64,000 bases of DNA from Thermogutta terrifontis (GTDB lineage: Bacteria > Planctomycetota > Planctomycetia > Pirellulales > Thermoguttaceae): positions 4,609,206 through 4,673,205 of the forward strand of contig NZ_CP018477.1 of the NCBI RefSeq assembly GCF_002277955.1, in the 5' to 3' direction. Under the pieces are notes generated by a model, which did no database searches, was not told the origin of the DNA, and saw only the letters and a list, made by a program, of their open reading frames with translations. A program made the translations under genes and the position numbers. Below, piece after piece: positions 3,141-57,147 of this stretch. Every line of letters begins with the position of its first letter. Position 1 is the first letter of the stretch.

Positions 3141-3822
3141 GAATCTCTCCCCTGCGGGCAGCTTCAAAGGGCCGGACGATGCGGAGTGCGGCACCCGCCA
3201 GGTCGGTCCTGGAAACCCTGCCCATGGTTATCCTACGCTTTTGCGATATTTTAGGCAAGGAGAATTGCGAAAATTCCGTTAGCACCCTCACGCCGGGCTG
3301 GGCTGCGGTCCATTTGGGAGAAAAGTTGGGCCCTGGCGACTTGAGACTTCGACAACGAAGTAGGGTGCCGAAATCGGATGTTCCTTCAATGAAGCTTTTG
3401 ACGTTCAGGGCGGGATCAACGTGCAGGGGCTCTCCGCAAGCAGTAGATAGCTCTAATTACGTAACCGCCTTGTTGAGGCGCTGGTCCGCAACGGCAAGGC
3501 GGCCGGGTACGGTACTATTTACCACGCCAGCATTCTGATTGGTGTGGGGGAATTGGATTCCACAACGTTCAACTGTGGACGTGACAAGCATGTCCCTCCA
3601 CGCCAGATCCCGGTTCTCCACGAAGCGCCATGGCGATTCGCATCCCTTCCTCGCGGTAGAAAAAGGAATGACTCCGGAGTTGCGCTCTTGAGCCTCAGTT
3701 TTGGGTGAGGATAATGTAAATTCTTCCCTATGATAGCCCTTTTTTGTTATCCCTAAATTTGACCACTTGCTCGGCAGGACAATATCGCTGCCGGATTGTC
3801 AGTCGCCTGTAGAGGACTGTTC
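3141..3822. other. Divergent intergenic region between sufR and the sodium symporter
   Basis: No convincing gene is seen in these 680 bases; the short open frames lack ribosome binding sites and family features. The region must hold the promoters of both flanking transcripts. An imperfect palindrome, GAATT-N5-AATTC at 3262-3276, lies about 120 bases upstream of sufR and could be an operator for the repressor, but this is speculative. A run of six T at 3741-3746 is not preceded by a clear hairpin. Confidence 0.5.
3759..3788 (+). promoter_or_regulatory. Possible sigma-70 promoter of the symporter operon
   Basis: TTGACC at 3759-3764 is followed after 17-18 bases by ATATCG/TATCGC (3782-3788). 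The start codon is 35 bases further on. The -35 match is good and the -10 match weak, so this is only a candidate. Confidence 0.3.
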
Positions 3823-19008: not shown

Positions 19009-19083
19009 GGAGATGCAAGCACCGAACGCAACCAACCGCCGAGCGATTTGATGGAAACACGTCTCGAACCGAGGACAAATGCA

Positions 19084-20094
19084 ATGGCCGAAACCTACTA
19101 CATCTTCCGCAGTGGACGACTCCGGCGAAAGCACAACACCCTTTATCTCGAATCTCCCTCAAACAACGGCGACAGCCAAAAACACCCTCTCCCCGTGGAG
19201 AATGTCCGCGACATCTACCTGTTCGGAGAAATCGATCTGAATACCAAGCTTCTCCGCTTTCTCGGCCAAAGACAGATCACCGCCCACTGCTTCAATTACC
19301 ACGGGTTTTATGTAGGCAGTTTCTATCCCCGCGAACGCAACGTGAGCGGCGATCTCCTCGTCCGCCAGGTCGAGGCTTTCCTCGATTCCAATCGCCGTTT
19401 ATTCCTTGCCCGTCAGTTTATCAAGGGCGCCCTTTTTCACATCCTGCACAACCTCCGCTATTACCAAAATCGCGGTAAAGACCTGGCCGACATCATCGCC
19501 ACCGTCGACGCCCTGGCCGCCCAGATTGACGACGCCCCCGATATTCCCTCCCTGATGGGCCTGGAAGGCCGGGCACGCGACACCTACTATCAGGCCTTCA
19601 CCCTCATCATGAATTTGCCCGAACCCTTTGAAAAACGTGTCCGCCGACCACCCAATAACCCCATCAATGCCCTCATTTCCTTCGGAAACACGATGCTCTA
19701 CACAGCGGTCCTCACAGAACTTTATGTCACCCAGCTCAACCCCACGATCAGTTACCTCCATGAACCCTCCACCCGCCGATTCTCTCTCGCCCTGGACCTC
19801 GCCGAAATCTTCAAACCGCTCATTGTGGACCGACTCATCTTCCGACTGTGGAACAAACGCATGATCACCGACAAGCACTTTGAATCCGTGGGCAACGCCC
19901 GGGGCGTCTATCTCAACGAAGAAGGCCGAAAAATCTGGGTCCGCGAATTCGAAAAACAACTCAGCGAAACCGTCCAGCACCGCAAACTCAAACGATCTGT
20001 CTCGTACCGCCGCCTCCTCCGCCTGGAGGCCTACAAACTCGTTCGCCACCTCCTGGATATGGAACCCTACGAATCCTTCAAAGCCTGGTGGTAA
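19084..20094 (+). CDS. cas1: CRISPR integrase Cas1
   Basis: A 336-residue Cas1 that, with Cas2, inserts new spacers at the leader end. The metal residues are E161 (LEGRARDTYYQAF), H226 (YLHEPSTRRFSLALDLAE) and E241 within the same segment. The N-terminus MAETYYIFRSGRLRRKHNTL starts at 19084 with GAGG about 9 bases upstream; earlier starts at 19048 would add residues not seen in the family. About 75 bases separate it from cas4. Confidence 0.95.
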   Translation: MAETYYIFRSGRLRRKHNTLYLESPSNNGDSQKHPLPVENVRDIYLFGEIDLNTKLLRFLGQRQITAHCFNYHGFYVGSFYPRERNVSGDLLVRQVEAFLDSNRRLFLARQFIKGALFHILHNLRYYQNRGKDLADIIATVDALAAQIDDAPDIPSLMGLEGRARDTYYQAFTLIMNLPEPFEKRVRRPPNNPINALISFGNTMLYTAVLTELYVTQLNPTISYLHEPSTRRFSLALDLAEIFKPLIVDRLIFRLWNKRMITDKHFESVGNARGVYLNEEGRKIWVREFEKQLSETVQHRKLKRSVSYRRLLRLEAYKLVRHLLDMEPYESFKAWW

Positions 20095-21127: not shown

Positions 21128-21367
21128 AAGCCCCCAGACCCCAGCAATTCGCCCCTTGGCGCTGCCATTCAGTAAGCGTCTCCTCCCTGACGTGGCGACA
21201 CGCCGGAGTGAGCCCCTCGGCCGAAATACCGATCTGATGGTCGGGCGTACCGTTTACCGGGTACCAGCCGGCGGGTGGGCCGGACTCGGCCCCTTTTCCC
21301 CTCACACGAGGGGTGAGCCTCACCAGCCCTTTTGTTCGATGTACCGCATACCATCCACTTGTGGGGG

Positions 21368-21396
21368 TTGACAGGGTTTGTGTCGGTTTGTACGCT
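21368..21396 (+). promoter_or_regulatory. Candidate array promoter in the leader
   Basis: Perfect TTGACA (21368-21373), 17-base spacing, then TACGCT (21391-21396). The predicted start is about 100 bases before the first repeat, suitable for pre-crRNA transcription. Confidence 0.5.
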
Positions 21397-21399
21397 TAG

Positions 21400-21447
21400 T
21401 TGCAGTCGATCTCCTGGGAATTTCGCACGACCGGCGATCGACTGCAA
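21400..21447. promoter_or_regulatory. 12-bp inverted repeat in the CRISPR leader
   Basis: TTGCAGTCGATC (21400-21411) and GATCGACTGCAA (21436-21447) are exact reverse complements 24 bases apart. A second small stem, GGAAAGCC (21469-21476) with GGCTTTCC (21488-21495), ends 8 bases before repeat 1. Possible roles are a regulator site overlapping the promoter start or an architectural site for spacer integration; neither is shown. Confidence 0.5.
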
Positions 21448-21502
21448 AACAGGGGGTGGAGGGAGGGTGGAAAGCCCGGAAAACATCGGCTTTCCGGGGA
21501 GG

Positions 21503-23976
21503 GTCTTAATCGAACCAAGTTGGGATTGAAACTTAAATCGCCCTTTTCAAAGGTTCCAATCTTACAATCAGTCTTAATCGAACCAAGTTGGGATTGAAAC
21601 AAGACATCAACACATGAATGTCAGGAGGATACAAAAATAAGTCTTAATCGAACCAAGTTGGGATTGAAACAGGTTTATTGTCAAGCGTGAAGGTTTATTT
21701 TTTTCCGTCTTAATCGAACCAAGTTGGGATTGAAACGCTTCTTTTTGCGATTCTTTCATGCTCTCGCTGGAATCATGTCTTAATCGAACCAAGTTGGGAT
21801 TGAAACCTCTCATCTGCGCGCTCCTTATGCTAGATGCCAAGTTCACGTCTTAATCGAACCAAGTTGGGATTGAAACTTTGGATGATCGAATCCGGTTTCC
21901 TGTTTCCTGTCTGCCAGGTCTTAATCGAACCAAGTTGGGATTGAAACGGCCTTCACACAACTGTTTGGTAGGCATCGCAACAACGTCTTAATCGAACCAA
22001 GTTGGGATTGAAACGAGGAATAATCCCCTTTAAAGAAGGATGCTGCATCCGTCTTAATCGAACCAAGTTGGGATTGAAACTTTTTTTTGCGCTCATCACG
22101 TGTCTCTTTCGCACTGTTGTCTTAATCGAACCAAGTTGGGATTGAAACCGGAGCATGAGCAAATAGCCGACCCTTCCAACGTTGACAGTCTTAATCGAAC
22201 CAAGTTGGGATTGAAACGGAAGTGAGCCACTACCTGGTCGAGGACTTGGTTCTCGACGTCTTAATCGAACCAAGTTGGGATTGAAACTTGTAATAGCGAA
22301 AAAGCCCCCGTCTTCGCCTCCAAAACCACGTCTTAATCGAACCAAGTTGGGATTGAAACCGTGTTGCGGATATGCTAGCATTCCTGAATATGCCCGTCTT
22401 AATCGAACCAAGTTGGGATTGAAACAGTTGCATTTTCACGCTCCACACGTGCGTGAAAATATCCAAGTCTTAATCGAACCAAGTTGGGATTGAAACCGGG
22501 ATACAGTGTGGACGGCACCGTCCGGGCACCGGGTCTTAATCGAACCAAGTTGGGATTGAAACGGATTATTTGGCGCCAACTGTTTGGCGCCAAATTTTTC
22601 GTCTTAATCGAACCAAGTTGGGATTGAAACACACGAACGACATGCGAGTTGATTCGTAGCAACGTGTCTTAATCGAACCAAGTTGGGATTGAAACGCAAA
22701 CTGCTGAACTGGCTAGTTGTCCCTGAGCTTGAGTCTTAATCGAACCAAGTTGGGATTGAAACTTGCTCTAGCTAACCACCAACACGCTGTACCTTGTACG
22801 TGTCTTAATCGAACCAAGTTGGGATTGAAACAACCATCCGTCCTGTAAATTTCTCCATCAAGCTTTTGTCTTAATCGAACCAAGTTGGGATTGAAACCAT
22901 AGCGCTCTGTGTGATGAGCTTATAAAAAAAGTTGTCTCAATCGAACCAAGTTGGGATTGAAACAACGATTGTTCGATATTGTGAGCAACGTCCAGGTGTG
23001 GTCTTAATCGAACCAAGTTGGGATTGAAACAGTCGCCAGGCTGAACAAGGAAAAGGTGGAAGCGACTGTCTTAATCGAACCAAGTTGGGATTGAAACCTC
23101 AAACTGCGATGCGCCGTCACGCAGCTTCGCGACAGCAGTCTTAATCGAACCAAGTTGGGATTGAAACGCAACGTTTGGGCTGCCGCGATCCCGCCCTGAG
23201 CTGCGTCTTAATCGAACCAAGTTGGGATTGAAACATAGATTCAGCTCCTCGCACGCGAACTCGATGAGCGGCTGTCTTAATCGAACCAAGTTGGGATTGA
23301 AACTTACAAGCGCCTCCCAGTCCTCGTCGTCCTTGACGAGGAAGTCTTAATCGAACCAAGTTGGGATTGAAACTTAAAATAGTAATAACGGGGTTTTTTG
23401 TTTCCCACACGTCTTAATCGAACCAAGTTGGGATTGAAACCGGGGCGGCTGCGCGGGCCGGCCGCGGCCTCCGGCTGTCTTAATCGAACCAAGTTGGGAT
23501 TGAAACACCGCCGACAGTACCGAATGTGGCTTCCTGGACACCGTCTTAATCGAACCAAGTTGGGATTGAAACTGTTAGAAAGTTCAGTTGGCTTCCCACC
23601 GTGCTTGAGTCTTAATCGAACCAAGTTGGGATTGAAACCTGCCACGGAAGCCAAGCCAAGTACATCTTCTCTGGGTCTTAATCGAACCAAGTTGGGATTG
23701 AAACTTTTAAGCACGAGCACAAGCTGGGGACTGGGTGCTTGAAGTCTTAATCGAACCAAGTTGGGATTGAAACCTGGAAAAGTGTATTACCACCAATGGC
23801 CTTTCCAGGTCTTAATCGAACCAAGTTGGGATTGAAACTAACTGAGAAACTATCATGATAGATAAGCAACAAGAAGTCTTAATCGAACCAAGTTGGGATT
23901 GAAACAGGGCCTGGCCGGGTTGGGCCTATCGCGGCCGAAGCCGCCAGTCTTAATCGAACCAAGTTGGGATTGAAAC
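21503..23976 (+). CRISPR. CRISPR array, 37 repeats of 30 bp, 36 spacers
   Basis: The 30-base repeat starts GTCTTAATCGAACCAAGTTG and ends GGATTGAAAC, the ATTGAAAC ending being usual for I-A/I-B repeats and giving an 8-base 5' handle. I located 37 copies, the first at 21503 and the last at 23947. Spacers are 35-42 bases long. All copies read in full appear identical except the one at 22934-22963, where the fifth base is C instead of T. Orientation and distance match the cas operon upstream. A truncated 38th copy lies beyond an insertion at 24194. No spacer origin could be assigned without a search. Confidence 0.98.
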
Positions 23977-23984
23977 GAGTTAAA

Positions 23985-24183
23985 AGCGAGTGGCGAGTAG
24001 CGAGTCGCGAGTAGTATTCCTGGTGTGCGTCGAACGGAGATGCGCAGCGCTCGTTAGTCGTGAGCCGTCAGATAGCTTGGAACTGAAAACAGAAAACAAT
24101 CGCGTTTGCGGAGACAATCGGCGGTCTACTGAAAAACCGATTGTCCACTTTCACCACTCGCCATTCGCCATTCGCTACTCGCC
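23985..24183. mobile_element. MITE-like heptad-repeat element in the distal CRISPR array
   Basis: About 199 bases sit between the last full repeat and a truncated repeat. Both ends are tandem heptads of the form (A/G/C)GCGA(G/A)T in opposite orientation: four units at 23985-24012 and four inverted at about 24155-24183. GGCGAGTAGCGA (23992-24003) has its exact complement at 24172-24183. Inside is a 9-bp hairpin, GACAATCGG (24113-24121) with CCGATTGTC (24137-24145). There is no coding frame. Inverted ends plus an internal palindrome are the structure of a small non-autonomous element; no target duplication is evident. Confidence 0.5.
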
Positions 24184-24193
24184 AAAACAAATA

Positions 24194-24214
24194 GAACCAA
24201 GTTGGGATTGAAAC
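24194..24214 (+). CRISPR. Truncated 38th CRISPR repeat
   Basis: The last 21 bases of the repeat are preserved exactly; the first nine are missing and replaced by other sequence. It is 217 bases from the last full repeat. Exact 15-base inverted copies of a heptad block flank it, CCATTCGCCATTCGC at 24161-24175 and its complement at 24225-24239. It marks the old trailer end of the array. Confidence 0.85.
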
Positions 24215-24223
24215 GAATAAAGG

Positions 24224-24253
24224 GGCGAATGGCGAATGGTGAATAGCGAATGG
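24224..24253. repeat. Tandem heptad repeat after the CRISPR remnant
   Basis: Four tandem units GGCGAAT, GGCGAAT, GGTGAAT, AGCGAAT follow the truncated repeat. They resemble the short tandem heptads (STRR-type) described in some cyanobacterial genomes; relationship to those is not established. Confidence 0.7.
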
Positions 24254-25128
24254 TAAGCATCGCGGCCGGGGACGCATAACGTCGATCAGAAGTTCATGCC
24301 CGGTGGGCGCCCGTTCTTTCTCGTCCACACTGCCGTTCCAACCCGATTCGAACTAGCCTTCCAAGTTGACGGTACGGGCAATTCATGAATTGCCCCTACT
24401 AGTGACCAGCTTCTGTGTTCGCGGCGAGACACCGCAAGCGCTAAGCTGGTGAAGGCTAAAGCCTTCACCAAAAAGCGGCGATGAATCGCCGCACTCCATG
24501 GAGTGCGGGGCTTTAGCCCCGCTTTCCGCGCGGGACTTCAGTCCCCCGGCAAAGGCAATGGATGATCCAACGTTAGTCGGCGGACCCGACAAGCGGGTCC
24601 CTCCGAGAGACCGTTCGGTGAGGCACGCTTGTCGTGCCCGGGGAATAACAATGGATAATCCAACATCATGAAGCGCACGTGACAGGCACGTCCCTCCGAG
24701 ACACGGACCTGACAAGCAGGTCCCTCCGAAAAAGCGGACCCGACGAGCGGGTCCCTCCGAGAAGCGGACCTGACAAGCGGGGCCATACGACGTTGTACGG
24801 GCAATTCATGAATTGACCCTACCGGCGGACAGCAGATGGTTAAGATACCTGTCGGGCATCACAGAAGGATGATCCATTCGGGCGAGCTTCGCTGAAGGCA
24901 TCCCAAAAAGCGAGAAAGTGCATGGAAATCCCATCCGCACGGTTGTGGAACGGACAGCACGGTGGGTCCAGTCCCAGAGTCACCATCTTCTTTTTCTTCC
25001 TCGGCAATTTGACACGACAATTGCCGTTCGGGGATTCTCCCCTATTATGAAAAAAGCACACCGGGCGCCCAGTAAACGGCGTTGGCCGCGATCTCGCACC
25101 TGTTCAATCCATAAATGGAGTGCTCATC
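24254..25128. other. Intergenic region after the CRISPR array
   Basis: No supportable gene is seen. The centre is the hairpin-repeat block at 24372-24822; frames crossing it are repeat shadows. The remainder (24823-25128) shows only the start-proximal region of the following gene. Confidence 0.6.
24372..24822. repeat. Hairpin-repeat block A
   Basis: A string of perfect stem-loops. In order: a palindrome around GGGCAATTCATGAATTGCCC (24376-24395); GGTGAAGGCT-AA-AGCCTTCACC split at 24448-24469; GCGGCGAT-GA-ATCGCCGC (24475-24492); GCACTCCATGGAGTGC (24491-24506); GCGGGGCT-TT-AGCCCCGC (24505-24522). Then come units of the ACAAG family at 24582-24600 (GGACCCG/CGGGTCC), 24622-24638 (inverted, CTTGT loop), about 24674-24692, 24705-24723 (GGACCTG/CAGGTCC), about 24736-24754 and about 24766-24784, most followed by CTCCGA. 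A diverged copy of the first palindrome closes the block. Confidence 0.9.
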
Positions 25129-25554: not shown

Positions 25555-28362
25555 TCACTCCCGCGTTTCATTCGGGATCTTTGGACTGGAGCGTATGAAC
25601 TTCAGTGAGTCGAGGCGGATTTCCGCATTGGAGGTTGTGCACGGGTCGAGCCGTAGCTCCGTGACCATTCCACGCCATAGAGGATGTCCCGCAAGATCCA
25701 GGCGATAGGTGTGAAGCTGCCCATCCGTGACCACCTCGACTTTCGCGCTGGCCTCCTCGCGGAAGGGGGCATTGGGCGGACACCAGAAAATCTGCAGGAT
25801 GTCGCGAGCCTTCGGAGAGCGAATCGCCATTCGGATTTCCATCCCGGAAAACTCGCTTGCCCGCAGTTTGGTTGTCGTTTGCAGGGCTGGGTCATCGCTG
25901 GTGGATTGGGTAGTAAGGCAGCCCTCTTTCACGACAGGGGGTGTCAGTCCCATCATCGCCGACCAGCCTTCGGTGTCACCGGCTGTGACGAAGTCCCACT
26001 CGGTGCGAACCGGTGGTTCCTCCACAGTGGTGAATTCCGGCAACGGCAAGCCCACGTCCTCCGGACCGAAATTCCGTGGCGCGGGGCTGTCGGGACAGAA
26101 AACGCGGCGGATGGCTTCCAGGTGGCCGAATCCATATTTCTTGTGCGGTTCGCAGAAAGAACCCTCGCCAAACTCGTTCCAGGCCTCAACGAGGAGCACT
26201 TTGGGTTGACCCGTCTCATCCACAAATTGTTTGGCCTGGCGGAGGTGGGCCTCAAACGCTTCTGGCGTGCAATCAGTGAGGACGAGGGCCCGATCCCCGT
26301 GCCACGGACGGGAATCCCAGCCCGCACTCACAGGCGTGATCACCGGCATGAGTCCGGCCTCGGCAAGCGGCCGCCACCAGAGCGTGTTGTAGTTTCGCGC
26401 GACTTCGGCAAAGGGCACCCAACTTCGGCCCTCGATCCCGCATGAAGGCCAGTTGTACCCGGTGACGGCATCAAATCCCATCTCCTTCATTTCCTTGAGG
26501 ACGCCGGGGGTGCCGCATCCCGCCACAAGAATCTTCCCCACGCCCGCCTCCTCCGTCATGCGGTGCCACAGATCGATGGCCTGACGCGTTCCCTCGATCC
26601 CCAAGTCCCGTTTGAGGGAATGAACAGAAAAGATCACGAGCAACGGCCGGCCGTCAATTTTAAAATATTCGGGACGCCGGAAATAATTTTCTATCCAGTA
26701 TTGGCACACGCGTCGGTTATCCTCCGCGCTGTGTTCACCGGGACCGAAGTGATTCGCCCAGAGCAGGCAAAACTTGAGAAGGTTGCGATACCGGGATTGG
26801 AGGTAGCCGTCATGAAGGGCATGATTGAGCCGCTGCTCTCCCTGTCGCCAGTACCAGTCGTAACAGAAAAAAGTGATCCCGTGTTCCACGGCCCACTTGA
26901 TTTGCCAGTCGATCACCTCGGGGAGTCCTTCTCGGTAAAAGCCTAGCACCGGCCGGCGTTCAGGAAACGTCACCAGCGGAAGCCACGAGGCTGGACGCCC
27001 CCAACCGGGAAAATAGTAAACGCCCACTTCATATGGCCCACGGATCGGCTGCGGGGGCGGAACGTATTCCGCTTTCGGAAGGTGCAGCTCCGGCAGAAAC
27101 GTCTCCACGCACTCTGATTGCAGCGCAACGGGGTGGGTGACGAGAAGTTTCAGCCGGCACTCGCCTTCGCGATGGCTCTTCACCCGCCAGACAAGTGATC
27201 GCATATCGCCGTAGTCGATAGGTCCAGTCGCCTGTTCTGCGGATGCAGGTTCTGTAAGCTCCACACCATCAGGAAGGATAAGTTTGGCGCGAACGGCAGG
27301 GACCATTTCACCGCCGCGGTTGGTGATCTGGGCGACAACGTCGCATGTCTGTCCCACCCGGGGGAGTGCCGATTTGATGAAAAAGTTTCTTATTTCCAGG
27401 TCGGCGGGTCCCGCTGGTTCCTCAGTCAGCTTAAACCATCTGATGCGGAGATGGACGGGCTTCTCGGCGGTCGCTTCGAGCCCCAGGTAAACGATGGGTG
27501 GTTGCCAGCCTTTGGCGCCGGCGAGCGGGACATTGTAAACCCGCGGGGCCTTTCCCGGAGTTAAAGGAAACTCCTGCGACTGAAGGCCGTTGACTTTGCC
27601 CGATGCCCAGATCAGCCGAGCCATCCCTGGCTCCTCCACAGCCATCTGGAATGCGGCGAAGGCCATCACCTCGGTAACCTCGACGGGCGGCGCGACCAGA
27701 CGGGAACCGGGTGGCAGAACGACGTGAAGTCCGTCCTCATCCACCCACAATTTGCCGTCACCCTCAATGCTCCAGCCCGCCGGGTTGTCGCGGAAGGTCC
27801 AATCGGGAGCGACCGGTTGTGCCCTTGAACCGAGTTCAATAATGTGAATAAAGTCGATGCGATATTCCGCGGGCTCCTGGCCCCCTTGCAGACCGGGAAG
27901 ATCAAACCGCAGACGCAGGAGTTGCCCCTCGGCCTGCCAGAATGGACGAACGCGGTAGGTATGCCAACCGGCGCTGACGTGAAACGGGGTGTGTTTTTCG
28001 GGGGAAAAACCGCCATATTGCGTTTTGGTGGTGTTGGTCCAGAAGAACTCGGCGGTTCCATCGCGTGGGGCCCACAACCGAATTTCGATGACCTGAGTGG
28101 GGGTTGTCGCCAATGGCGGATCGAAAACCTCGTGGACGAGGATTGGATCCCAGTCCACCACTGTGGTGCGCAAGACGCCCTCTGCCACCTGCGTGTCCCG
28201 GAGATGCCCTCCCGGGCTCCAGCCCTGCAGATTGCCCGGCTCATCGAAATTCCATTCCCGCAACACCTCCTCGCCATTCGCGGCAGAAACTCCCGAAGCA
28301 ATAACCAAACTTCCCAGCGAAAGGATCGTGAAAAGCCAGCGCGCACACCGAACTGCCATCAT
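25555..28362 (-). CDS. Secreted WbsX / GH99-like domain protein
   Basis: A 935-residue exported protein. Tandem ATGs at 28362 and 28359 follow GGAG; the first is preferred. A signal peptide is clear (RWLFTILSLGSLVIASGVSA, cleavage near residue 30). Residues about 35-300 form two beta-rich, carbohydrate-binding-like domains with EVLREWNFDEPGNLQGW and PDWTFRDNPAGWSIEG. A CARF-like/DUF11-type beta domain follows near 325-420. The core (about 430-780) starts GPYEVGVYYFPGWGRPASWL and contains FFCYDWYW, LLVIFSVHSL, GYNWPS and LLVEAWNEFGEGSF, resembling the GH99-like WbsX family. A third beta domain (TEWDFVTAGDTEGWSAMMG) ends the protein. A role in glycan or mannan breakdown is likely but inferred. 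Confidence 0.72.
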   Translation of the reverse strand: MMAVRCARWLFTILSLGSLVIASGVSAANGEEVLREWNFDEPGNLQGWSPGGHLRDTQVAEGVLRTTVVDWDPILVHEVFDPPLATTPTQVIEIRLWAPRDGTAEFFWTNTTKTQYGGFSPEKHTPFHVSAGWHTYRVRPFWQAEGQLLRLRFDLPGLQGGQEPAEYRIDFIHIIELGSRAQPVAPDWTFRDNPAGWSIEGDGKLWVDEDGLHVVLPPGSRLVAPPVEVTEVMAFAAFQMAVEEPGMARLIWASGKVNGLQSQEFPLTPGKAPRVYNVPLAGAKGWQPPIVYLGLEATAEKPVHLRIRWFKLTEEPAGPADLEIRNFFIKSALPRVGQTCDVVAQITNRGGEMVPAVRAKLILPDGVELTEPASAEQATGPIDYGDMRSLVWRVKSHREGECRLKLLVTHPVALQSECVETFLPELHLPKAEYVPPPQPIRGPYEVGVYYFPGWGRPASWLPLVTFPERRPVLGFYREGLPEVIDWQIKWAVEHGITFFCYDWYWRQGEQRLNHALHDGYLQSRYRNLLKFCLLWANHFGPGEHSAEDNRRVCQYWIENYFRRPEYFKIDGRPLLVIFSVHSLKRDLGIEGTRQAIDLWHRMTEEAGVGKILVAGCGTPGVLKEMKEMGFDAVTGYNWPSCGIEGRSWVPFAEVARNYNTLWWRPLAEAGLMPVITPVSAGWDSRPWHGDRALVLTDCTPEAFEAHLRQAKQFVDETGQPKVLLVEAWNEFGEGSFCEPHKKYGFGHLEAIRRVFCPDSPAPRNFGPEDVGLPLPEFTTVEEPPVRTEWDFVTAGDTEGWSAMMGLTPPVVKEGCLTTQSTSDDPALQTTTKLRASEFSGMEIRMAIRSPKARDILQIFWCPPNAPFREEASAKVEVVTDGQLHTYRLDLAGHPLWRGMVTELRLDPCTTSNAEIRLDSLKFIRSSPKIPNETRE

Positions 28363-28812
28363 GGTGGAACTCCAAAGAAAAAGCCCGGGCTGTCTGCTCG
28401 GTGTTTTTGACAAAGAACATTCGGTTGCGCGGTCCCATTTTAACAGCATGGTTGCAGCGAGGCAAAGAATCGCGAAGAGGGGCGTCTTCCGCGGCGTTCG
28501 ACGAACCCCGGAGAGGCACGCTTGTCCGCCGGGTGAGAGGAAATGGATGATCCAACGTTACTCGGCAGACCTGACAAGCAGGTCCCTCCGAAGAAATCGT
28601 TCGGAGGGGCACGCTTGTCGTGCCCGGGGAATAACAATGGATAATCCAACATCAGGGAGCGGACGTGACAAGCACGTCCCTCCGACAAACGGACGTGACA
28701 GGCACGTCCCTCCGACAAGCGGACCTGACGAGCGGGTCCCTCGGAGAAACGGACCTGACAAGCAGGTCCCTCGGAAAGGCGGACGTGACACCTGAAGCTT
28801 TGCGTCGCGAGC
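28363..28812. other. Intergenic region holding hairpin block B
   Basis: No gene is seen between the WbsX-like gene and the small coiled-coil protein. Most of the space is the hairpin-repeat block at 28513-28790. A promoter for the WbsX-like gene should lie at 28363-28510 but I could not identify one. Confidence 0.55.
28513..28790. repeat. Hairpin-repeat block B
   Basis: Units of the ACAAG family: GGACGTG-ACAAG-CACGTCC (28661-28679), GGACGTG-ACAGG-CACGTCC (28691-28709), GGACCTG-ACGAG-CGGGTCC (28721-28739, with a G-T/U pair) and GGACCTG-ACAAG-CAGGTCC (28751-28769), plus one at about 28567-28585 and an inverted unit near 28608-28626. The block ends in a truncated unit at about 28781. A 46-base stretch (28609-28654) is identical to 24623-24668 in block A. 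Confidence 0.9.
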
Positions 28813-39055: not shown

Positions 39056-40000
39056 ATCGACAAGCTCCTCCACAAGTCCACAAGCAAGTGCCAGAACGCT
39101 ACGTGCTGCCTCGACTCACCCAGTTGCCAGAAGTCTCCGTCGATAACCCCGGCTACAAGATGTGTGTTGCTTCCTGACTCCACGAACAGCAAATTTCCCC
39201 ATAAACTACCCACGGGCAAGCGAATCCGCAACCGGGTGGGCGTTATGGCGGAGGAAGTCGGTCGGGAAGGGATGTGCTTGAGCAATAAAAGAGCGGACTC
39301 CCCATATGGAGTGCGGGGCTTTAGCCCCGCTGAAACGGAATCCATGATCGAACGTTGACAAACGGACCTGACAAGCAGGTCCCTCCGGAGCGTCGGAGGG
39401 GCACGCTTGTCGTGCCCGAGGAAAAGGGAATGGATGACCGAACGTCAAACGGCGGACCCGACAAGCGGGTCTCTCCGACGTTGTAGGGGCAATTCATGAA
39501 TTGCCCCTACCAGTGCGCTCTCGTGGTCGTGGCGAAACACCGCCAACGCCAAGGTTGTGAAGGCTAAAGCCTTCACTAAAAAGCGGCGATGAATCGCCGC
39601 ACTCCATAAAGTGCGGGACTTCGGTCCCCGCTGAAACGGAATCCATGATCGAACGTTGACAAACGGACCTGACAAGCAGGTCCCTCCGGAGATATGGACC
39701 TGACAAGCACGTCCCTCCGAGAAAAACGGACCCGACAGGCAGGTCCCTCCGAAGCGTCGGAGGGGCACGCTTCTCGTGCCCGAGAAAAAGGGAATGGATG
39801 ACCGAACGTCAAACGGCGGACCCGACAAGCGGGTCCCTCCAAACGTAGACGTGACAAGAATGTCCCTCTGGGAAAAGCGGACGGGGGCAAACGCATCCCT
39901 TCGAGGGCGGCCGACTAAAATGGCAGGGGCGACCGGCTGGTCGCCCCCAACTTGCGCCACGCTCTTGCAGGTCAAGCATGAAGTAAAGATACCCGGGTGT
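39056..40000. other. Intergenic region holding hairpin block C
   Basis: About 940 bases with no supportable gene; frames crossing it are repeat shadows. The block at 39290-39870 is described separately. The araB promoter should lie in 39056-39290 but was not identified. Confidence 0.6.
39290..39870. repeat. Hairpin-repeat block C
   Basis: The longest of the four blocks. It includes a perfect 28-bp palindrome at 39483-39510 (centre AATTCATGAATT), GCGGGGCT/AGCCCCGC near 39313-39330, GTGAAGGCT/AGCCTTCAC near 39557-39576, GCGGCGAT/ATCGCCGC near 39583-39600, and many ACAAG-family units, for example GGACCTG-ACAAG-CAGGTCC at 39364-39382 and GGACCCG-ACAAG-CGGGTCT at 39454-39472. Two composite segments are repeated within the block, near 39330-39390 and 39630-39690, and near 39427-39472 and 39791-39836. 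Some units combine half-stems from different classes. Confidence 0.9.
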
Positions 40001-56294: not shown

Positions 56295-57147
56295 CGGAGT
56301 CGCCTGAGTCCTTTCGGGCACAGTCGCAGTTTCTGCTTCTGCGGTTACCCCTGCCGTGGTTCCGTGGGCGGACGGATCAGTGCAAACGCTGTGCCCAGCA
56401 TCAAAAGAGGTGACAACGAGCACAAATTGCTGCCACAACCTTCCATGAGATTACAACTTAGGAAACATTCCCACCACTAAACGCCAATCCGCAGAACCGA
56501 AGGAAACTTTGATGCATGCGCAGAATTTGCCGGTCCGTCGGCAGGATTCGCAGGGGTCCGCGACCGCGACCCGAGGTGAAATTGGGAAAGGTGGAGCCCC
56601 GAAAGCTGTTTCGCCCCGACATCCTGGTTTGCGGTGAGATTCGGGTAAGAGATCGCGAGCGGTTTTTAAGTCGGAGGAGCACGCTCGTCGTGCCCGGTGA
56701 AAGAGAATGGATGATCAATCATGGATGATCAATCGGTGTTCATCGGACCTGACAAGCAGGTCCCTCCAGAGAAACGGACGTGACAAGCAGGTCACTCCAG
56801 GAAAGGTCCCTCCGGAATTTTTTCGGAGGGGCACGCTCGTCGTACCCGGTGAAAGGCAATGGGGGATCGAACGTTAAAAAGTGGACCCGACAAGCGGGTC
56901 CCTCCGACGTCGTAGGGGCCATTCATGAATTGCCCCTACCGTTTAATCAGCGGAATATAGACCTGACAAGCAGGTCCCTCCGGGGAAACGGACGTGACAA
57001 GCACATCCCTCCGAATGCTCCGTCGCCAAAAGAGGTTGCAAGGCAAATGGCTTGTTGGAGGGACGCGTTCCGCGGCGGCCCACGCCTTCGCACGACGTCC
57101 GGTGGCCTTGAAAGAAGATTCAAGCGGCACCAGGCCGTCTGGGTCAC
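56295..57147. other. Intergenic region upstream of flgF, holding hairpin block D
   Basis: No supportable gene is present. The flagellar promoter should lie at 56295-56480; I did not recognise a sigma-28 or sigma-54 site. The block at 56671-57013 is described separately, and 57014-57147 shows nothing further. Confidence 0.55.
56671..57013. repeat. Hairpin-repeat block D
   Basis: ACAAG-family units include GGACCTG-ACAAG-CAGGTCC near 56746-56764, GGACCCG-ACAAG-CGGGTCC at 56883-56901 and GGACGTG-ACAAG-CACATCC near 56990-57008. Inverted units with CTCGT loops lie near 56679-56697 and 56829-56847. A diverged copy of the 28-bp palindrome is at about 56912-56939. One unit near 56775-56793 pairs imperfectly because its half-stems come from different classes. 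Confidence 0.88.

Follow-up and report, generated by a model that had tools for sequence, protein, structure and literature searches.

The BIMEs of Escherichia coli are mosaic intergenic arrays of several hairpin types and fixed linkers. The arrays described here differ from them in having seven hairpin types in one array, and their sequence is unrelated. REPs in general are defined by a structural feature that they share: at its 5' foot the short hairpin carries a conserved tetranucleotide that does not pair (PMC6006769), and the guide GTAG is regarded as their hallmark. The GTAG-tagged REP superfamily, in which such a foot adjoins a stem of 6–9 bp, is present in planctomycetes and Verrucomicrobia (PMC3733652). 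In Pseudomonas fluorescens SBW25 the REPINs are extragenic inverted doublets with a defined spacer, the doublets are less diverged, tandem clusters occur, and the genome has a RAYT gene (PMC3116915). The E. coli enzyme, TnpA-REP (4er8), has the HUH motif and a catalytic Tyr, and its gene is flanked by REPs on both sides (PMC8266576, PMC6006769). Its contacts with GTAG have been described, and any substitution in GTAG abolished binding and cleavage (PMC8266576); the positions W94, Q95, H101 and R104, together with E100, have been named for GTAG recognition (PMC6006769).

The dispersed hairpins of the hot-spring bacterium Thermogutta terrifontis that are analysed here are like the SBW25 REPINs in all of the respects just listed, and, like the GTAG superfamily, they are short stem-loops with an unpaired tetranucleotide at one foot. 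They are unlike the SBW25 elements in their guide, which is GGAG and not the GTAG of described REPs, in the two feet of a doublet, which are non-identical (A with B, or A with E/H), and in that neither A nor B lies beside the RAYT gene. We consider it probable that they are a new GGAG-guided REPIN family that would owe its spread to a RAYT-type single-strand transposase, and most likely they are not a separate kind of element.

Hairpins of the window and their guide

The window (the whole stretch analysed, the 64,000 nucleotides at 4609206–4673205 of the T. terrifontis chromosome) contains 27 copies according to a covariance model of the hairpin, and hand-made rules gave nearly the same set. 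One copy lies at 3575–3601, five at 24580–24760, six at 28565–28775, eight at 39362–39842 and seven at 56671–57014. An earlier note on this DNA had reported at least twenty stem-loops in four intergenic blocks, with a 7-bp stem, a loop ACAAG (or ACGAG, ACAGG) and a tail CTCC(GA); the blocks and the anatomy are as it described, and the lone copy at 3575 is additional. The features are as follows; hairpins were placed by the covariance model unless another basis is given, and composite units, given without a strand, rest on sequence and the covariance model except where stated.

3575–3601, minus strand: lone degenerate A-type hairpin (28.8 bits)
24472–24498, minus strand: RAYT-type hairpin D (GGAGTGCGGCGAT..ATCGCCGC), from sequence; the same type adjoins the RAYT gene
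24500–24604: chimeric doublet, from sequence and the consensus of 80 such units; its order is GGAG-T-GCGGGGC... hairpin (type E), H hairpin, linker AATGGATGATCCAACGTT, inverted A hairpin, CTCC
24580–24606, minus strand (the REP strand): A-type hairpin (GGACCCG stem) with GGAG guide (45.2 bits, and hand-made rules)
24615–24641, plus strand: B-type hairpin (GGGCACG stem)
24617–24697: REPIN of B hairpin, 35-nt linker and inverted A hairpin, guides outward (spacing, consensus and covariance model)
24673–24699, minus strand: A-type hairpin (ACGTG stem, loop ACAGG)
24703–24729, minus strand: A-type hairpin (GGACCTG stem), tandem copy
24734–24760, minus strand: A-type hairpin (GGACCCG stem, loop ACGAG), tandem copy
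28565–28591, minus strand: A-type hairpin
28603–28683: REPIN of B (28601–28627, plus), 35-nt linker and A (28659–28685, minus), also from spacing
28689–28775, minus strand: three tandem A-type hairpins (28689–28715, 28719–28745, 28749–28775)
39308–39386: short E-A chimeric doublet, ending in the A-type hairpin 39362–39388
39395–39476: REPIN of B (39393–39419, plus), 36-nt linker and A (39452–39478, minus)
39663–39752, minus strand: three tandem A-type hairpins (39663–39689, 39694–39720, 39726–39752)
39759–39840: REPIN of B (39757–39783, plus), 36-nt linker and A (39816–39842, minus)
56671–56769: B-type hairpin (56671–56697, plus) and A at 56743–56769 (minus), with a longer linker of 49 nt
56774–56800, minus strand: degenerate A-type hairpin
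56825–56905: REPIN of B (56823–56849, plus), 35-nt linker and A (56881–56907, minus)
56957–57014, minus strand: two tandem A-type hairpins (56957–56983, 56988–57014)

The tail seen previously is correct as sequence, but it had been drawn on the strand complementary to the REP strand, where the guide looks like a tail: CTCCGA on the other strand is TCGGAG, immediately before the stem, as in C-GGAG-GGACCTG-CTTGT-CAGGTCC. The REP-strand consensus of the units is C-GGAG-GGRCNNG-CTTGT-CNNGYCC. When hairpins were chosen by stem and loop alone and the guide was ignored, GGAG preceded 451 of 481 (94%), and the outermost conserved bases are a C before GGAG (86–89%) and a G after the stem (85–89%). Divergence within a stem class is similar throughout, at 3.7% in the guide, 4–5% in the stem and 6.4% in the loop. 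The hairpins thus have the tetranucleotide at the 5' foot, the high copy number and the extragenic position of REPs in the broad sense. The tag GGAG is neither GTAG nor one of the variants listed for the superfamily (GYAG, GYRG, GTRG, GTMG and GTGG; PMC3733652), and it falls outside the described GTAG and CGTC groups. We found no description of GGAG-tagged REPs in the papers searched, and GGAG is absent from PMC3733652, PMC6006769 and PMC8266576; the REP predictor used in PMC6006769 requires GTAG or GTGG, so it would miss the whole GGAG group.

The first block of hairpins adjoins a CRISPR array (repeat GTTTCAATCCCAACTTGGTTCGATTAAGAC; about 21300–24250 and 19048–20091 of the window) that lies beside a cas1 gene (PF01867, 5e-92). 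The same arrays as the hairpins also hold the palindrome GTAGGGGCAATTCATGAATTGCCCCTAC, a double-foot GTAG-type repeat (24370–24400, 39480–39512 and 56913–56940), of which there are 192 copies in the chromosome stretches read.

Paired stem changes, doublets and arrays

Most copies have one of four stems: GGGCACG in type B, and GGACCTG, GGACCCG or GGACGTG in type A. That the inner stem bases change on both sides, as had been noticed, holds with the qualification that these are four discrete stems: three of the seven stem pairs show paired changes, with Watson-Crick pairs in 85–91% of 748 copies against 37–52% expected from the make-up of the columns. Covariation is strong at pairs 3, 5 and 6, pairs 1, 2, 4 and 7 hardly vary, and slid registers fail. 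Over 45 distinct copies (rows chosen with at least six pairs) the covariation score was 0.448, against a shuffled mean of 0.200, and none of 500 shuffles was as high. Subfamilies that differ by complementary stem residues are likewise known among published REPs (PMC3733652). Among copies that share a stem class, changes confined to one arm are far more frequent (446) than changes in both arms (27, with about 12 expected under independence), so the covariation amounts to about five paired substitutions in source lineages and not to copy-by-copy compensation. The pairing is therefore real, but the earlier view that paired change marks selection for the structure was too strong, since copies decay without compensation. 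Hairpin copies decay freely once made, and the structure matters for the sources.

Such a role of the structure in the sources is what copying by a hairpin-binding enzyme would lead one to expect, and quasi-palindrome correction could also give the pairing. Quasi-palindrome correction is known for imperfect palindromes: during replication a template switch in the hairpin rewrites one arm from the other, and the covariation would then be mutational, with no structural selection. Half-way hybrids at stem pair 6 are equal in both directions (T-G 41, C-A 40), with no preference for the wobble-compatible strand, and there are more two-sided Watson-Crick changes inside the classes (17) than the few that chance would give, both as this mechanism would have it. 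It covers the stem alone, however, and not the guide, the linker, the doublets, the copy number or the confinement to two species, and we regard it as quite unlikely to be the whole explanation; it may act together with transposition.

The arrangement of the copies agrees with the probable REPIN reading. They belong to mosaic arrays that also contain five other types of palindrome (C to H), and A and inverted B are 35 nt apart in 75/95 and 46/71 cases in the two orientations (121/166 together), while A and inverted H are 33 nt apart in 39/47 and 34/37. One homologous linker, with the core AATGGATGATCnAACGTT, is present in the consensus of 156 B-A and 80 E-H-A units. The outer ends of 49 strict E..A units are GGAG (48) and inverted CTCC (47), with a spacer of 59 nt in 44. 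Stem divergence is 0.44 for hairpins in doublets against 0.84 outside doublets (p = 1.2e-7) and 1.6 for isolated ones; lower divergence in doublets was the argument for REPINs as replicating units (PMC3116915). Two of the marks of REPINs are thus present in the Thermogutta hairpins, inverted doublets of preferred spacing and a lower divergence of these doublets than of other copies. Together with the guide, the extragenic position and the presence of a RAYT gene, the fixed linker of these doublets bears out the parallel with REP/BIME elements that the earlier note had drawn.

An 81-bp B-A unit with inverted ends and many dispersed copies could also be a non-autonomous MITE of an ordinary DDE transposon, with terminal inverted repeats CGGAGGG[A/G]C. 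Each end of the unit is nevertheless a hairpin whose guide stays unpaired at one side, an arrangement that REPs have and simple inverted repeats lack, and of the 306 genes no more than 600 bp from a copy just 2 have a paralogue of at least 75% identity, which makes this origin very improbable. We also looked for a whole transposon of which the copies could be parts and rejected it, as no gene recurs in their neighbourhood. The flanks of five isolated doublets and the array ends were compared for a target site, and gave modest common motifs (TCAGCCC, TTCCACGGCGTCC) and no clean site.

The RAYT gene and its clade

The genome has a single intact RAYT-type gene, C1:896451-897038 (minus strand, 195 aa, motif NHYH), the kind of Y1/RAYT transposase that the earlier note had suggested seeking. 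Its product scores 83 bits against NF047646 (cut-off 80), with NHYH and Y138 conserved, and matches E. coli TnpA-REP (4er8) with 8.4e-12 over 134 positions, the HUH motif and catalytic Tyr being aligned. As in E. coli, REPs flank the gene on both sides; here they carry GGAGT, being hairpins GGAG-T-GCGGCGAT.. (D) and GGAG-T-GCGGGGC.. (E), and E is also the other foot of the 80 chimeric units with A. Two observations count against this enzyme as the source of the family: no A or B hairpins lie within 8 kb of the gene, and A and B have no unpaired T after GGAG and a stem and loop unlike those of all RAYT-flanking hairpins seen. The argument for the resident RAYT as spreader is thus the common guide and the common E-linker-A unit, and neither adjacency nor an observed event. 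A second RAYT, C1:3676418-3676786, was rejected as the cognate enzyme; it is frameshifted and has an internal GTAG-type palindrome. The broken RAYT-like gene of region C1:3676213-3676894, outside the window, has as its internal GTAG double-foot palindrome GTAGGGGCACGGCATGCCGTGCCCCTAC.

The GGAG guide appears to be shared by relatives of this enzyme in several phyla. Among 80 RAYT orthologues, which span planctomycetes, Verrucomicrobia, Acidobacteria and other groups, 65 have GGAGTGC[G/T] within 500 nt of the gene (far control, 1.4–1.9 kb away, 3/54), and it is on both sides in 48/71. In a separate count with no preset motif, the tetranucleotide that most often preceded hairpins close to the RAYT gene was GGAG plus one base (28 loci). 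CGGAGT-GCGAGAG hairpins lie beside an orthologue of 53% identity in another genome of the family, and 9 of 41 genomes of the family have the GGAGT-GCGG type, in many cases as plus and minus pairs about 60–140 bp apart and, in one of them (G306), around a RAYT gene. In an alignment of the GGAGT-RAYT clade (n = 73; residue register taken from the 4er8 match, E. coli numbering) W94 is kept in 73/73, Q95 has become H in 55, H101 T or S in 70, and R104 T in 66. Unlike E. coli TnpA-REP, the T. terrifontis protein has H119, V124 and T127 in place of Q95, H101 and R104 (the V position is T in most of the clade), and two GTAG-flanked RAYTs of the same family retain Q, H and R.

These observations suggest how the hairpins might multiply. 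The replicating unit would be the doublet, composed of a B or E/H foot, the linker core and an inverted A, with guides at both outer ends. Where the region became single-stranded each foot would fold, and a RAYT-type HUH/Y1 transposase would bind guide and hairpin, cleave nearby and place the doublet, by copying or by moving it, in further intergenic sites that are single-stranded. Hairpins that stand alone or in tandem would be remnants, or would have arisen by recombination between repeats. The intact RAYT with its GGAGT-tagged E and D hairpins is the best candidate for the enzyme, and would then also serve the A and B feet. In a wider history to which we give about even chances, a RAYT clade of planctomycetes, Verrucomicrobia, Acidobacteria and others exchanged the GTAG guide for GGAG(T) while its guide-binding residues changed to match. 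In Thermogutta the REPs of this clade would then have yielded a new foot (GGAG without the spacer T, and a CTTGT loop), which would now form one of the ends of chimeric REPINs with two feet and have multiplied beyond the RAYT-flanking type. Should the GGAG rule prove to be linked to the residue changes, this would be a natural switch of guide specificity in a single-strand transposase of the HUH class; from the E-A and B-A units a single enzyme would be seen to accept two different feet, and a REP family would be seen to arise and multiply inside one genus.

Distribution in the genome and among relatives

The T. terrifontis R1 chromosome has 4,810,751 bp and a GC content of 57.34% (PMC5673643). 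Our chromosome counts cover 2.86 Mb of it, leaving out 4.20–4.81 Mb (except the window) and most of 1.2–3.0 Mb, and include 692 copies that depart from the template at most twice; the family amounts to roughly a thousand copies. There are 311 exact matches to GGAGGGACNNGCTTGTCNNGTCC in the genome and none to a reversed control pattern, which excludes chance; the loosest template gave 830 matches against 124 in the reversed genome. Fully 673 of the 692 copies (97%) are outside predicted CDS (gene calls made for the present analysis from a codon-pair score), although CDS makes up 82.5% of the sequence.

In a rival reading the hairpins would work at the RNA level, as 3' ends, terminators or stabilisers, and this would be why they spread or persist. 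Of 90 arrays between tandem genes, 61 have the A hairpin in the orientation of the genes (p = 0.001) and 59 are closer to the 3' end of the upstream gene (p = 0.004); a few copies of the window (24754–24736, 39746–39728) score as terminator-like. On the other hand, a T-run (at least five T in the 8 nt after the stem) follows only 61 of 692 copies on the REP strand and one on the other, and divergent regions are the most often occupied (21.5%, against 11.5% of tandem and 11.4% of convergent ones, uncorrected for length). The unpaired GGAG is conserved as well as the stem, the changes inside a stem class are overwhelmingly one-sided, no Rfam family matches in the window, and no known RNA or tRNA was matched there. 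As a family the hairpins thus lack the T-run and the placement at gene 3' ends of intrinsic terminators and show a mild 3'-end bias. We regard a transcript-level origin as unlikely, and of the role at transcript ends suggested earlier there is left the orientation and 3'-end bias, which may reflect a secondary effect on transcripts. Mobility alone does not explain the orientation bias relative to genes, and this counts against the REPIN reading, which we still think the probable one.

Among the relatives searched, the A family is present in two sister Thermogutta species only. With at most one mismatch the A pattern occurs 516 times in T. terrifontis and at least 264 times in the sister genome G357, so the idea that it is private to one genome is refuted. 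The pattern is absent from two other Thermogutta congeners, the covariance model found nothing in 38 other relatives, and no copy is present in samples, without G357, of 293 genomes of the phylum or 60 of the family. This narrow range beside the wide RAYT clade makes the A family look younger than the clade. No RAYT was detectable in G357 (96% complete), which counts against our preferred explanation; the genome is in 1120 contigs, so a repeat-flanked RAYT gene may be missing from the assembly. Arrays on both sides of a WbsX-like gene (window 25555–28449) are in the same places in G357, with other contents, and judging from this comparison the sites appear to be old, with rapid turnover. No empty site or excision of a doublet was seen; the single orthologous locus compared has arrays in both species.

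Along the chromosome stretches read, the density per Mb is 518 in 0–1.0 Mb, 438 in the window, 124 in 3.0–3.8 Mb, 58 in 1.2–3.0 Mb and 12.5 in 3.8–4.2 Mb. All hairpin types crowd in the first of these and in the window, are moderately frequent in 3.0–3.8 Mb and are nearly absent from 3.8–4.2 Mb. The stronger dnaA match is at 2.045 Mb, where hairpins are sparse, and the dense part is roughly opposite. A replication strand bias was considered and rejected (A has 268 plus and 237 minus copies, and GC skew gives no clear replichores). Array ends genome-wide have recurrent flank modules, GAGATTCAGCCCGGAGG beside A ends and TTCCACGGCGTCCGTCGAAC beside B ends, which may be further array parts or target sites.
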